Assembly: GCF_003351345.1 (NCBI RefSeq)
Contig: NZ_QQTO01000019.1
Coordinates: forward strand, 682,001 to 746,000
Length of the DNA stretch: 64,000 nt
Direction: 5' to 3'
Source of the DNA: Allobosea caraganae
GTDB lineage: Bacteria > Pseudomonadota > Alphaproteobacteria > Rhizobiales > Beijerinckiaceae
The position numbers and the translations under genes are program-made. The notes beneath the pieces are model-generated. The model saw nothing but the letters and a program-made list of their open reading frames with translations, searched no databases and was not told the DNA's origin. Below are positions 35,537-42,110 of this stretch, piece after piece (the stretch's first letter is position 1; every line of letters begins with the position of its first letter).

Positions 35537-35616
35537 GATCGGCTGCCCTCAGAGCTTCGGCAGCTCCGGTCTGGTTGCTCGACCCCCGCGTCCCTCTCGA
35601 TGAAAGGCACTCTCTC

Positions 35617-36105
35617 ATGTTCGGAATTTCTCCGCTTGGCTGGATTCATACGCTCGGTAGCCTGCCGGCTATTCCGGTGGCCTTTTACATGTTTGCCAGC
35701 CATGGCCGGATCGTGCCCCGCTCCAGGCTGGGCGCCGTCTACCTTATTTCCATGCTGATCGGCGCCGTGACGGTCTTCCTCGTGGCGCATCAGCCGGTCA
35801 GCTACGTGGTCGGCGCCGTGACGATCCTGTTCCTGCTTGCGGGTTATGGGGTTGAGCGCATTCTGGGCTCAGGGCGCGCAGCCAGATATGTCGAAACCAT
35901 CTGCCTGAGCCTGAGTGCGTTTCTTTTGATGCTGCCGACCGTCACCGAAATTCTGCGCCGTGTTCCGGACGGCCACCCCTTCGTCACCGATTTAAGCTCG
36001 CCGCTGCTCCGCGGTGCGCAGGGGAGCCTGCTGCTCATTCTCGTTGTCGGCTTGGCAGCTCAGATCATCTACCTGGCCAGGCAGGGCAGGACCGCTGCGA
36101 GCTAA
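35617..36105 (+). CDS. Membrane protein controlled by the adjacent TetR, unknown function
   Basis: 162 aa protein with about four to five membrane helices (GWIHTLGSLPAIPVAFYMFA, YLISMLIGAVTVFLVA, VVGAVTILFLLAGYG, ICLSLSAFLLMLPTVTEI, LLLILVVGLAAQIIYLA). The conserved-looking HTLGS and HGR in the first segments could bind a cofactor, but I do not recognise the family with certainty. The spacing to the TetR gene and the shared operator indicate one regulon. Confidence 0.65.
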   Translation: MFGISPLGWIHTLGSLPAIPVAFYMFASHGRIVPRSRLGAVYLISMLIGAVTVFLVAHQPVSYVVGAVTILFLLAGYGVERILGSGRAARYVETICLSLSAFLLMLPTVTEILRRVPDGHPFVTDLSSPLLRGAQGSLLLILVVGLAAQIIYLARQGRTAAS

Positions 36106-36531: not shown

Positions 36532-37257
36532 ATGAGCGTATCGCCCGATTGGGGCTGGCGGCGGGTGATGCTCGCCGGCATGCGCGATGCGCTGGCGCTG
36601 CCGGCCTGGATCGTCTGCCTGTCGCTGGTCGGCGTCGGCTCGCTGGCCCGCGATGTCGGCTACCCTGTCGGGGTCGCGGTGCTCTCGACCGTGCTGGTCT
36701 GGGCCGGGCCGTCGCAGGTGCTGTTCTTCGGCTCGATCGCGGCTGGCGCCGCCTGGAGCGCCATCGCCTTCGCGATCGGCTTCGCCTCGCTGCGCTTCCT
36801 GCCGATGACGGTGACGCTGCTGCCGCTGCTGCGCCGTCCCGGGCAAGGGTTTTTTGCCCAGGCGCTGATGGCGCACTACATGGCGGTGACGGTCTGGACG
36901 GAGAGCCTGCGGCGCCTGCCGGCGATCCTACCGCACCAGCGCGTCAGCTACTATCTCGGCTTCGCCAATGCCTGCATCCTGACGAGCTCGCTCGGCACCT
37001 TCGCCGGCTACTACCTCGTCAGCGCGCTGCCGGCGCCGCTTGCGGCGGGACTGCTCTGCCTGACGCCGATCTTCTTCCTGTCGTCGCTGGTCGCCGGCAT
37101 CCGCCATGGCAGCGACGCTGCCGCAGTCGCGCTCGGCTTCTGCCTCGCGCCGCTCTGCGAGCGCTTCATCGGCGGCGGCTTCGACCTGATCATCTCGGGG
37201 GTGCTCGGCGGCAGCCTCGCCTTCGGCGTCCGGCATCTGGCGGCGCGCCGGGCATGA
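36532..37257 (+). CDS. azlC: AzlC-family branched-chain amino acid exporter, large subunit
   Basis: 241 aa inner-membrane protein with about six to seven helices. GMRDALALPAWIVCLSLVG at the start, AGPSQVLFFGS and SLRFLPMTVTLLP are characteristic of AzlC/YgaZ. With AzlD it exports branched-chain amino acids. The stop overlaps the azlD start (ATGA). Confidence 0.87.
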   Translation: MSVSPDWGWRRVMLAGMRDALALPAWIVCLSLVGVGSLARDVGYPVGVAVLSTVLVWAGPSQVLFFGSIAAGAAWSAIAFAIGFASLRFLPMTVTLLPLLRRPGQGFFAQALMAHYMAVTVWTESLRRLPAILPHQRVSYYLGFANACILTSSLGTFAGYYLVSALPAPLAAGLLCLTPIFFLSSLVAGIRHGSDAAAVALGFCLAPLCERFIGGGFDLIISGVLGGSLAFGVRHLAARRA

Positions 37258-37613
37258 CGCAGCCCATCGCCTGGCTCGACGGGGCGCATTGGCCCTATCT
37301 CGCGCTCATCCTCTTCGCCTTCCTGCCGACCGAGATCTGGCGTTGGCTCGCCGTGCTGTTCGCGCGGCGGATCGACCCGGATTCGCCGGCGCTGGAATGG
37401 GTGAGGGCGGTCGCGACCGCGCTGCTCGCCGGCGTCGTCGCCAAGCTGGTCTTCTCACCGCCCGGCGCGCTCGCGCTTCTGCCGCTCTGGCTCAGGCTCG
37501 CGGCGCTGGCGGCTGGCCTCGCCATCGTCATCTACGACCGGCGCAAGGTGATGTACGCGGTGCTCGGCGGCGAGGTGGTGCTGATCGGCGGCGGGTGGTG
37601 GTGGTTGGGCTGA
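37254..37613 (+). CDS. azlD: AzlD-family branched-chain amino acid exporter, small subunit
   Basis: 119 aa protein with three to four membrane helices, the size and layout of AzlD/YgaH; the ATG overlaps the azlC stop (ATGA). FAFLPTEIWRWLAVLFARRI near the N-terminus corresponds to the conserved first-loop Arg region. Its stop codon abuts the convergent sigma factor stop codon with no gap (TGATCA). Confidence 0.8.
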   Translation: MTQPIAWLDGAHWPYLALILFAFLPTEIWRWLAVLFARRIDPDSPALEWVRAVATALLAGVVAKLVFSPPGALALLPLWLRLAALAAGLAIVIYDRRKVMYAVLGGEVVLIGGGWWWLG

Positions 37614-38495
37614 TCAACCCGCCGGCGCCGCGACATGGCGCAGCTTGTCCGGGTTGCGCGTCACGTAGATCGCCTGGATCAGCCCGTCGCGGATATCGAG
37701 CGCGACCGTCTGGAGATGGCCGTCGGGGTCGCGGCTGACATAGCCGGGCAGGCCGTTGACCAGCGCCGGCTCGTAGCTCGCCGCCTTGCCCAACAGCTCG
37801 GCTTTATGCGCGAGGCTGGTGTAGAAACGCGTGATCTTGTCGATGCCGAAGATCGGGTTGAGCACGGAGATGACCTTGCCGCCGCCATCGGCATGAAGGA
37901 CCACGTCCTGCGCCAGCAGCTTCTGCAGCGCTGTCGGGTCGGAGCGGTGGGCCGCTTCGAAGAAGGCTTTGGCGAAGCGGGCGGCCTCTTCCGCCGAGAC
38001 CTTGTTGCGCGGCGGCGTGTCGAGCCTGACGTGCTCGCGGGCGCGCTTGGCGAGCTGGCGGCAGGCGCTCTCGCTGCGCTCGATCGTGCGGGCGATCTCG
38101 GCGAAATCCATCTCGAAGACGTCGTGCAGCAGGAAGGCGGCGCGCTCCAGCGGCGAGAGCCGTTCGAGCGCCAGCATCAGCGCGATCGGCGCGTCGAGCT
38201 CGTCATCGACAGGCTCCGCGCCGCCGAGGCTCTCGACGAGCGGCTCGGGCAGCCAGCCGCCGACATAGAACTCGCGCCGGCTGCGGGCCGATTTCATCTG
38301 GTCGAGGCAGAGGCGGGTGACGATGCGGGCGAGATAGGCCCGCGGGTTGCCGATCCCGCCTTGCTCTGCCTCGCGCCAGCGCAGCCAGGCGTCCTGGACG
38401 ATGTCCTCGGCGTCGCCAACCGAGCCCAGCATGCGGTAGGCAAGCCGGGTCAGGAAGCGCCGATGGGTTTCGAACAGGTCCGGCGCAACGTTCAT
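37614..38495 (-). CDS. ECF41-family RNA polymerase sigma factor (SigJ-like)
   Basis: 293 aa sigma factor with regions 2 (about 10-75, GSVGDAEDIVQDAWLRW) and 4 (about 110-165) and a C-terminal SnoaL-like extension. All three ECF41 signatures are present: WLPEP between the sigma domains, DGGGK in the extension and NPDKL at the end. In this family the extension replaces an anti-sigma factor and modulates activity. The ATG overlaps the stop of a carboxymuconolactone-decarboxylase-like gene (ATGA), the classical ECF41 context. Confidence 0.92.
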   Translation of the reverse strand: MNVAPDLFETHRRFLTRLAYRMLGSVGDAEDIVQDAWLRWREAEQGGIGNPRAYLARIVTRLCLDQMKSARSRREFYVGGWLPEPLVESLGGAEPVDDELDAPIALMLALERLSPLERAAFLLHDVFEMDFAEIARTIERSESACRQLAKRAREHVRLDTPPRNKVSAEEAARFAKAFFEAAHRSDPTALQKLLAQDVVLHADGGGKVISVLNPIFGIDKITRFYTSLAHKAELLGKAASYEPALVNGLPGYVSRDPDGHLQTVALDIRDGLIQAIYVTRNPDKLRHVAAPAG

Positions 38496-38947
38496 CCGCG
38501 CGGCCGGTCGTTGGGGTGATGCGAGCGGAAGCCGATCGCGATGCGGTTCCAGGTGTTGATCGTGCCGATCAGAAGCGTGAGCTTGACCAGTTCCTCTTCG
38601 CTGAAATGCTCGCGCGCCTCCTCGTAGTCCTCATCGGGCGCATGGGTCTGCGAGATCAGGGTCAGCGACTCCGTCCAGGCCAGCGCCGCGCGCTCGCGTG
38701 GGGTATAGAGCTGCGATTCATGCCAGGCGTCGAGCAGGAAGAGCCGGGCCGGCGTCTCGCCATCCTTGATGGCCTCGGCGGAGTGCATGTGCAGGCAATA
38801 GGCGCAGCCGTTGAGCTGCGAGGCCCGCATCTTCACCAGGTGGATCAGGCTGTGTTCGAGGCCGCTCTCCTTGAGCGAGGCTTCGAGTGCGATCAGCGGC
38901 TTGATGGAGTCGGGCGCGGCGGTATAGGGGTTGAGGCGCTTGCTCAT
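38492..38947 (-). CDS. Carboxymuconolactone decarboxylase/AhpD-like protein 1
   Basis: 151 aa all-helical protein of the CMD/AhpD superfamily with the redox motif CAYCLHMHS (CxxC plus His), so a peroxidase or disulfide-redox role is likelier than lactone decarboxylation. The ATG at 38947 begins MSKRLNPYTAAPD, closely matching its neighbour (MTQRLNAYQVAPA). It is coupled to the ECF41 gene by ATGA and is a likely target of it. Confidence 0.87.
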   Translation of the reverse strand: MSKRLNPYTAAPDSIKPLIALEASLKESGLEHSLIHLVKMRASQLNGCAYCLHMHSAEAIKDGETPARLFLLDAWHESQLYTPRERAALAWTESLTLISQTHAPDEDYEEAREHFSEEELVKLTLLIGTINTWNRIAIGFRSHHPNDRPRG

Positions 38948-39048
38948 GATGGTCTCCGCAGGGATGGTTCGACCCGGAGCGCGAGGCTGCTCCGGGCCTG
39001 CAGGTATACAGCCGAAACGGCAGGGCCGTTGCCGGCATTCTTGCAATG

Positions 39049-39522
39049 TCAGGCCGCTGCGACGGCCGTGTCGCGCCGGCGGTCCTGCGGATGGCGGGTG
39101 CGGAAGCCGGCATTGATCCGGTTCCAGACGTTGATCGTGCCGATCGCCACCGAGAGGTTCACGGCCTCGACTTCGCTGAAGTGCTGGCGGAGCTCGGCGT
39201 AGACCTCGTCGCCGGGAGCCGCGTCCGCAAGCCTCGTCAACGCCTCGGTCCAGCGCAGGGCGGCGCGCTCGCGCGCGCTGTAGAGCCCGGATTCCTCCCA
39301 GGCGTCGAGCAGGTAGATCCGCGCCTCGGTCTCGCCGGCCTTGCGGGCGTCAGCGGCATGCATGTGCAGGCAATAGGCGCAGCGGTTGATCTGCGATGCC
39401 CGCAGCTTCACCAGTTCGAGCAGGCTGTGCTCGAGCCCGCATTCGGCGACGTATTTCGACAGGTTGAGCACGGGCTCATAGGCGGCCGGGGCAACCTGGT
39501 AGGCATTGAGGCGCTGGGTCAT
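39049..39522 (-). CDS. Carboxymuconolactone decarboxylase/AhpD-like protein 2
   Basis: 157 aa paralogue of the gene at 38492, aligning end to end, with CAYCLHMHA and TINVWNRINAGFRTRHP (the neighbour has TINTWNRIAIGFRSHHP). The ATG at 39522 has GGAG 6 nt upstream. It is first in the unit and is preceded by an exact-spacing ECF41 promoter at 39553-39579. The tandem pair looks like a local duplication. Confidence 0.87.
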   Translation of the reverse strand: MTQRLNAYQVAPAAYEPVLNLSKYVAECGLEHSLLELVKLRASQINRCAYCLHMHAADARKAGETEARIYLLDAWEESGLYSARERAALRWTEALTRLADAAPGDEVYAELRQHFSEVEAVNLSVAIGTINVWNRINAGFRTRHPQDRRRDTAVAAA

Positions 39523-39552
39523 CGTGGTCTCCATCATCTGCGATGAAGACAA

Positions 39553-39579
39553 GACGAGGCAGCCAGGCGCCGCGTGACA
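39553..39579 (-). promoter_or_regulatory. ECF41-dependent promoter
   Basis: On the minus strand TGTCACG (39579-39573), then exactly 16 nt, then CGTC (39556-39553). The published ECF41 consensus is TGTCACA-N16-CGTC, so 10 of 11 fixed positions match. It lies 31 nt before the start codon of the first CMD gene and predicts autoregulation of the CMD-CMD-sigma unit. Confidence 0.85.
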
Positions 39580-39585
39580 TGCTCC

Positions 39586-40014
39586 TCAAAGATTTTTCAG
39601 CGCCGCGCGGATTTTCCCGGCATTGGCGCTGAGCACCTCGAGCTTTTCCATAGCGCCGCTATGGGGCTTGAGCGCAATGCCCTCGAAACGCGGCATGATA
39701 TGGACATGCAGGTGGAACACGACCTGGCCGCCGGCTGACTCGTTGAACTGCTGGATCGTGACGCCGTCGGCGGCGAAGGCGCTCTTCACTGCGCGCGCCA
39801 GCTTCTGGGTCGTCAGCGCCACCGCGTTCAGCGCCTCGGGCGGCGCGTCGAAGATGTTGCGGCAGGCCATCTTGGGGATGACCAGCGCGTGGCCATCGGC
39901 GCGCGGCATGATGTCCATGATCGCGATGGTCGCGTCATCCTCGTAGAGCAGGTGCGAGGGCAGTTCGCCGCGCAGGATCTTGGCGAAGACGTTGGAGGGA
40001 TCGTAGGCGGTCAT
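39586..40014 (-). CDS. HIT-family nucleotide-binding protein
   Basis: Histidine-triad hydrolase, about 142 aa. The triad motif HLHVHIMPRF is near residue 98-107, and IFAK-like VFAKILRGELPSHLLYEDD is the usual N-terminal strand. The family cleaves nucleoside phosphoramidates or dinucleotides. The ATG at 40014 (MTAYDPSNVF) fits family N-termini; a TTG at 40077 that overlaps the upstream stop (TTGA) would add 21 residues and may be the coupled start. Last gene of the ridA-GDPD-GNAT operon. Confidence 0.88.
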   Translation of the reverse strand: MTAYDPSNVFAKILRGELPSHLLYEDDATIAIMDIMPRADGHALVIPKMACRNIFDAPPEALNAVALTTQKLARAVKSAFAADGVTIQQFNESAGGQVVFHLHVHIMPRFEGIALKPHSGAMEKLEVLSANAGKIRAALKNL

Positions 40015-40073
40015 GGCGGCGTCCATGCGAATGGGGATGGTGGCAGCAACCTGTCGCGGCTCCGGCTGTTGCG

Positions 40074-40866
40074 TCAAGGCCGCGCGGGTGCCGGGCGGTC
40101 GTGCAGGTTTTCACCGAGCGGCAGGCGCTCAGTGATCTCGGCATCGAGCACGAGGTCGTCGCGCGCGCCGAGGAGCCAGAGTTCGCGTGCTTTGAGCCGC
40201 AGGAGCGGGCGCTCCCACCAGCGCGCGAGGATATCAGCGAGCGCCAGGGCCTCGGCCGCGTCGAGATCGTCGGTCAGGTTGTAGAGGCCGACGACATAGA
40301 GATCGGTCTGCGGCCGGCCCATGGCCGATTGGATCATCTGGAAGCTGTTGGCGCCGTCGCGCCGCTCGGGATAGGCGCGCAGATAGAGCCGGCCGCGATT
40401 GATGTTGCCGGAGAACAGGCCGCGCAATTCGACCGCGACCGGGCCGAAGGCCTGGAGGGCGCCACGCTGACCGGCCGTGATGGCCGGCGGCTCCCCAATG
40501 CCGAGCGAGCCGCAGATCGTCGCGTGCAGCTTGCCGGCGCGTTTCGACAGGATGTCCCAGGCGATCTTGCCGGCGAAGGGCGCCGCCTTCAACTCGCCCT
40601 CCAGTTCGAGGAAGGCGTCGGAACGGCGCAATTCCGCATCATCGACCGGCAGTACCAGCGAATAGACGGTCGGGTGGCTGCCCATCTCGTAGAACTTGCC
40701 GCCCTGGCGCGGGATCACGCCGGGATGGTCGGGCGCGACGAGCGGCAGATGCGCGAGCCGATAGGGCTCGTCGAGCAGGAGCGGCGCACCGGGCGCGAAT
40801 GCGGTGCGGCTGCGCAGATAGCCGAGTTCGGCATCGCTGCAGAAGCTCGGGGCTACGCCGCCGCCG

Positions 40867-40874
<8 letters not shown>
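40074..40874 (-). CDS. Unknown protein in ridA-GDPD operon
   Basis: 266 aa cytosolic protein; no signal peptide or membrane helix. A segment KLHATICGSLG resembles one HxT motif of the 2H phosphoesterase fold, but I see no second HxT, so that is only a hint. YLRAYPERRDGANSFQMIQS and LYVVGLYNLTDDLDA look conserved. The ATG at 40874 is chosen over GTG 40886, whose SD would touch the codon. It overlaps the GNAT gene by 8 nt and is followed by the HIT gene, so it is part of a coupled operon, perhaps of nucleotide or metabolite repair. Confidence 0.65.

Positions 40875-42110
<1,236 letters not shown>

Follow-up and report, generated by a model that had tools for sequence, protein, structure and literature searches.

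What does an ECF41 sigma factor control, and what might set it off, when it is coupled to two CMD genes rather than one? The question is raised by an operon on the minus strand of a 64,000-nucleotide stretch of Allobosea caraganae contig NZ_QQTO01000019.1 (positions 682,001 to 746,000; hereafter the window). The operon lies at 37614–39579, exactly as the initial annotation of the window had placed it, and in order of transcription comprises a promoter, the gene CMD1, a 101-nucleotide gap with a stem-loop, the gene CMD2 and the sigma factor gene. ECF41 is among the most widespread sigma factor groups for which neither a signal nor a phenotype is known; none was found for the factors studied, according to the accessible parts of PMC3426412, and the statement in the initial annotation that the trigger is unknown agrees with the published passages available. 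The ECF41 circuit itself is known. We estimate at roughly 90% the probability that the window encodes an ordinary one-operon ECF41 autoregulatory circuit, with its promoter before CMD1–CMD2–sigma, as judged from the sequence and by analogy with published systems. For comparison, 67 genomes of the genus were used, the genus being Bosea as judged by named relatives. Many operons occur both in the named locus set and in the genus set, and the two sets were therefore counted separately. Labels L and G with a number denote loci and genomes of this analysis.

A conserved ECF41 promoter before CMD1

The motif TGTCACR-N15..17-CGTC has a single match in the window, at 39553–39579. Shuffled sequences are expected to give 0.13 matches, and 13 of 100 shuffles contained one; taken by itself, the promoter match is weak. 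Its position and its conservation place it above chance, and the strict short motif is found at 40 of the 41 ECF41 operons of the genus. The initial annotation had matched this site to the published ECF41 promoter TGTCACA-N16-CGTC, and the N16 spacing was borne out, with the seventh base being G, not A. A G at this base is present in 13 of 57 N16 promoters, several of them near-identical Bosea sites.

The bases before CGTC in the 57 N16 promoters follow a pattern of their own: C in 54, T or C in 56 (41 T, 15 C), C in 47 and T in 54, giving CYnnCTCGTC. Outside the genus, at sites picked independently of the extra bases, the four positions all fit at 38/62 sites (64 loci) and 13/23 sites (28 loci), compared with 8/39 sites in a control set that is small and may include real promoters. 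Sequence letters from the accessible parts of PMC3426412 and PMC6180224 place C-Y-C in three published active promoters (RSP_0606 without the T), while three published inactive sites, nhaX, uvrX and ypbE, are without both C residues. The CYnnCT element is not named in the searchable text of PMC3426412, which excludes the logo of Fig. 4C.

A refined motif, TGTCACR-N10/11-CYNNCTCGTC, was read off these 57 promoters; some of them belong to this genus, which makes the motif partly circular within it. The refined motif has 45 sites in the 67 genomes and no control matches. These sites comprise 37 of the 41 ECF41 operons, three positions before DoxX genes, one remnant and four others. Of the 26 genus genomes without the sigma factor, 3 have a site, one being the remnant in G004. 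A genome search for further copies, as the initial annotation had proposed, gave nine short-motif matches in the organism's own genome, compared with two for the reversed control, and a single refined site, at this operon. Open reading frames near the nine short-motif sites were listed, and the other matches were rejected as promoters: the best-looking one, on contig C39, points into genes in the antisense direction, and the refined motif is absent from all of them.

The sigma factor resembles SigJ

The ECF41 family assignment made initially agrees with domain, structural and motif evidence. Pfam recognizes sigma regions 2 and 4, both above cut-off (PF04542, 60.1 bits; PF08281, 51.7 bits), and the NCBIfam SigJ model NF007214 scores 374.4 bits against a cut-off of 271. 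An AlphaFold model built from a 47-row alignment has a pLDDT of 86.6, and its best match, end to end, is Mycobacterium tuberculosis SigJ (5xe7; Foldseek E value 1.7e-19, TM 0.73). The C-terminal part of the model matches SnoaL/NTF2-like chains, and on this model the protein appears to carry a fused SnoaL-like C-terminal extension. WLPEP, DGGGK and NPDKL, cited initially as ECF41 signatures, are all present, and residues L82, P83, P85, D203–G206, N281, P282 and K284 are invariant in the 47-row alignment. WLPEP is named in the searchable text of PMC3426412; DGGGK and NPDKL are absent from that text, which excludes Fig. 3, and their label as signatures comes from the initial annotation alone.

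The genome has one such sigma factor (search at E value 1e-3), and the nearest named relatives are Bosea records, the closest being from Bosea sp. BK604 (86%). Within the genus, 41 of the 67 genomes carry it and 26 do not. Two genomes (loci L178 and L179) additionally contain a second, distant ECF41-like factor with 35–36% identity, about 60 nucleotides before whose frame lies TGTCACATCCGCGAGGTTTC(G/A)TTCGTC.

Twin CMD genes with probable repeated decay

The CMD/AhpD-like coupling reported initially takes the form of two PF02627 genes (64.7 and 68.5 bits; cut-off 23) on the same strand, directly upstream of the sigma factor. Their products are 59% identical over 150 residues, score above the cut-off of the TIGR00778 core domain and both contain CxxCxxxH. 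The model for AhpD proper (TIGR00777) is not reached, with CMD1 at 21.3 bits against 191.95 and CMD2 not listed. By sequence, CMD1 and CMD2 are predicted CxxC thiol-disulfide proteins of the AhpD-like kind.

Two tandem CMD genes had been called unusual. This holds outside the genus, where no tandem same-strand pair is found among 92 ECF41 loci from other genera, but not inside it, where 21 of 41 operons have one. Loci L036–L099 contain no CMD in 10 cases, one in 52 and two in 2, and in these last two either one gene is split over two frames (L048) or the genes are on opposite strands (L081). L216–L243 have one CMD in 18 cases and none in 10; L066 and L221, which have a promoter in common, could come from a single species. 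Across the order, 98 of 397 sampled genomes have a CMD2 relative (E value 1e-35), and of these 98 the three that belong to the genus are alone in having two neighbouring matches.

The remaining genus operons carry CMD1 only (15) or CMD2 only (4), apart from L177, in which the one CMD is distant but closer in score to CMD2. On the sigma tree these states require 8 changes, compared with a shuffled mean of 16.6, which fits a pair that was present in the ancestor and lost one or the other copy several times; gain of a copy is a possible alternative, because the tree is rooted at its midpoint. In the CMD2-only operons L133, L169 and L174, the CMD1 promoter and leader now precede CMD2. The sigma-less genome G004 retains, between HIT and AzlD, the promoter, the leader and 13 CMD1 codons that end in a stop (L215 near 4812, reverse strand). 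The CMD1 and CMD2 clades are supported at 100/100 and 100/98 and are not sister groups, so the pair could be an old duplication or one copy could have come from outside. In the tree, CMD1 falls together with the single CMDs from Achromobacter, Bordetella and Bradyrhizobium, with support (94/92) under the star limit. A hybrid origin was considered for the single CMD of the nearest relative, L020; in 20-residue blocks it shows CMD1 with some CMD2-like blocks, and a chimera was unconvincing.

The two proteins differ at the position 12 residues before the first cysteine of CxxC, which we take to correspond to Glu118 of M. tuberculosis AhpD. Glu occupies this position in 36/36 genus CMD1 proteins. 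CMD2 proteins of paired operons have His in 14/21 and Glu in 7/21, and Glu is found in 5/5 operons scored as CMD2 alone (four plus the distant L177). This difference is a lead toward a division of work, in which CMD1, with Glu at the proton-relay position, might be the catalytic peroxidase or disulfide reductase and CMD2, with His, a modified partner, possibly in a mixed oligomer. We put this forward tentatively. It is consistent with each CMD forming its own well-supported clade and with the better conservation of CMD2 across the other two-CMD operons (80–84% identity to the window copy, compared with 69–75% for CMD1). However, all 14 His cases fall in one clade (the window and L117–L129) and may thus reflect a single event, outside the genus His is also present in 22 of the 54 single CMDs and so appears viable alone, and redundancy is suggested by the recurrent loss of one or the other copy.

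The gap between the genes measures 68–128 nucleotides in 21/21 two-CMD operons. In the window its folding z is −3.17, with 0/200 shuffles as strong. Over the 21 operons z averages −1.83 and falls below −2 in 11, and a perfect stem beats shuffles (p<0.05) in 12. A hairpin between CMD1 and CMD2 is likely, although not universal. It is not a standard terminator, because no T run follows it.

A proposed autoregulatory circuit

Known ECF41 factors activate the COE promoter when overexpressed, and start sites have been mapped; partial removal of their extension gives a very active factor, while full removal gives an inactive one (accessible parts of PMC3426412). By analogy, the sigma factor of the window would be held at low activity by the SnoaL-like domain at its own C-terminus and would recognize a single genomic promoter, the one before CMD1–CMD2–sigma. 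Published ECF41 work suggests that the three genes are cotranscribed, in which case activation would raise both CMDs together with the sigma factor, forming a positive feedback loop. Neither CMD is needed in the genus, since each has been lost in relatives. Basal sigma factor would probably come from leaky transcription or from HIT read-through. Neither a sigma-70-like promoter nor a terminator-like site was found between HIT and CMD1, and the HIT stop codon is 6 nucleotides from the −35 element, which makes read-through a plausible basal source. The proposal builds on gene order, motifs, the promoter with its uniqueness and conservation, and the gene losses, all of which are evident in the sequences compared.

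Several observations weigh against this circuit. The sigma factor falls short of the SigX4 model TIGR02957 (310.3 bits; cut-off 323.25), and the Pfam scan of it gives no SnoaL domain. One of the 41 operons, L136, reads CGTCACA instead of TGTCACA, and L168, L170 and L172 are without the refined motif. A single target is not universal, as three relatives have a second site before DoxX. Cotranscription of CMD1, CMD2 and the sigma gene would have to cross the 101-nucleotide gap with its hairpin. Lastly, Pfam identifies AzlC, AzlD, HIT, FemAB and TetR among the operon neighbours and no anti-sigma gene, but the neighbours at 35575–36105 and 40074–40886 have no Pfam match and one of them may therefore be a hidden regulator.

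It is unlikely, in our judgement, that one CMD signals to the sigma factor, as a sensor or brake, beyond being its target. The genetic coupling, the translational overlap of CMD2 and sigma in the window and the fact that an anti-sigma gene is generally missing would be consistent with such a role. Least probable is a chance string in front of genes driven by HIT read-through only, for which the ninefold occurrence of the short motif (two in the control) and the nearby HIT stop without an intervening terminator-like site could be cited, but which runs counter to the near-universal conservation at orthologous operons and to a refined motif found nowhere else in the genome and never in the control.

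Other ECF41-type sites and partner genes

G021, G022 and G038 have a perfect refined site about 66 nucleotides before a DoxX gene (Pfam was run on one). From these sites, DoxX-type membrane proteins are likely extra ECF41 targets. DoxX is not mentioned in the searchable text of PMC3426412, nor jointly with ECF41 in the literature searched. In the 92 loci outside the genus, an NmrA-type gene lies near the sigma factor in 14 and a small membrane protein with a WYxxVPGVxxTGPFNxHF-like sequence in 11. NmrA-type genes are part of the published COE set; the small membrane family has no Pfam match above cut-off and weak DUF4345/DoxX_2 scores.

A broader scheme can be drawn from these data, although we consider it more doubtful than not. 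CYnnCT would be a third ECF41 promoter element, next to the −10, that selects real TGTCAC...CGTC sites. The regulons would then be a small redox set (AhpD-like CMD, twin and diverging here, NmrA-type and DoxX-type), and the trigger might be a lipophilic electrophile or a quinone-like ligand of the SnoaL-like domain. Such a ligand would be suggested by the combination of CMD, NmrA-type and DoxX-type genes in the proposed regulon.

The three second sites before DoxX run from 1054 in L211, 1032 in L212 and 1022 (minus) in L213. Members of the small membrane family lie next to ECF41 factors in L216, L223, L233, L237, L241, L243 and five more loci, and frequently follow the promoter. Back-to-back promoters about 30 nucleotides apart occur in L045 (2653/2684), L059 (2656/2686) and L093 (2654/2686), and one promoter of each pair precedes an NmrA-type gene and a CMD, while its counterpart precedes a bestrophin-family gene (Pfam on L045 only). 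The Methylobacterium locus L050 has four sites, at 744, 2547, 7760 (minus) and 2633 (plus), which precede an MBL-fold gene, a cyclase, an alpha/beta hydrolase and an NmrA-type gene.

Locus layout

The order HIT–operon–AzlD is kept in 16/16 loci L020–L035 and 10/10 loci L167–L176; the eleventh of the set L167–L177, L177, has a different ECF41 factor at a different place.

Table 1. Positions of the operon features and adjoining genes in the window.
Feature	Position	Strand	Details
ECF41 promoter	39553–39579	−	TGTCACGCGGCGCCTGGCTGCCTCGTC; TGTCACG-N16-CGTC, CTGCCT directly 5' of CGTC
Leader	39523–39552	−	30 nucleotides, from −10 to CMD1 start codon
Putative transcription start	near 39544	−	about 9 nucleotides past CGTC, distance taken from S. 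meliloti SMb20029
Ribosome site	39529–39532	−	GGAG
CMD1	39049–39522	−	AhpD-like CMD family protein, 157 residues; CxxCxxxH; Glu 12 residues before first Cys
CMD1–CMD2 intercistronic region	38948–39048	−	101 nucleotides; folding z −3.17
Hairpin	38973–38996	−	CCCGGAGC...GCTCCGGG; perfect 8-bp stem, 8-nucleotide loop, no T run behind
CMD2	38492–38947	−	AhpD-like CMD family protein, 151 residues; CxxCxxxH; His at the Glu position
ATGA overlap	38492–38495	−	CMD2 stop and sigma start codon
ECF41 sigma factor	37614–38495	−	293 residues; predicted fused SnoaL-like C-terminal domain
WLPEP linker motif	38241–38255	−	sigma residues 81–85
DGGGK	37875–37889	−	sigma residues 203–207
NPDKL	37641–37655	−	sigma residues 281–285
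HIT-domain gene	39586–40077	−	directly upstream, conserved neighbour; stop codon 6 nucleotides before −35
AzlC	36532–37257	+	convergent neighbour, other edge of site
AzlD	37254–37613	+	convergent neighbour, other edge of site

Significance and comparison with known systems

Neither the twin-CMD arrangement and its repeated decay nor the extended −10 is described in the literature searched, which excludes most subscription papers and the figures in PMC3426412; an earlier description is possible. The lineage is a natural experiment, in which the same promoter and sigma factor occur with CMD1 and CMD2, with CMD1 only, with CMD2 only or as a remnant. With the promoter defined more sharply, the regulon could be read off any genome sequence, and the partner genes that recur limit where the trigger should be sought.

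M. tuberculosis SigJ (5xe7) shares with the window sigma factor a fold with a fused SnoaL-like domain (phmmer E value 1.6e-49), at about 36% identity. Among the closest solved relatives of the CMD proteins are Agrobacterium Atu0492 (PDB 2gmy; E values 3.3e-41 to CMD1 and 6.1e-48 to CMD2) and the CMD/AhpD-like Pseudomonas aeruginosa PA0269 (PDB 2o4d), both titled hypothetical. The published ECF41 promoter, TGTCACA-N16-CGTC before a COE gene, is one base off from the window promoter at position 7. In the Rhodobacter sphaeroides RSP_0606–RSP_0607 (ecf41Rsp) and Bacillus licheniformis ydfG–ecf41Bli systems, the COE gene is the only target, the promoter has TGTCACA and the C-terminal extension controls activity (accessible parts of PMC3426412). 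Unlike the window operon, each has one CMD, and the B. licheniformis −10 is TGTT instead of CGTC. Sinorhizobium meliloti SMb20029–rpoE9 also has one CMD, compared with two here, and reads CTGTCT before CGTC where the window reads CTGCCT. According to the available passages, the CMD gene SMb20029 is the only target of RpoE9 (PMC6180224), its transcription starts 9 nucleotides below CGTC (PMC3616915), and the system shares with the window its gene order, promoter class and sole-target circuit (PMC6180224, PMC3616915).
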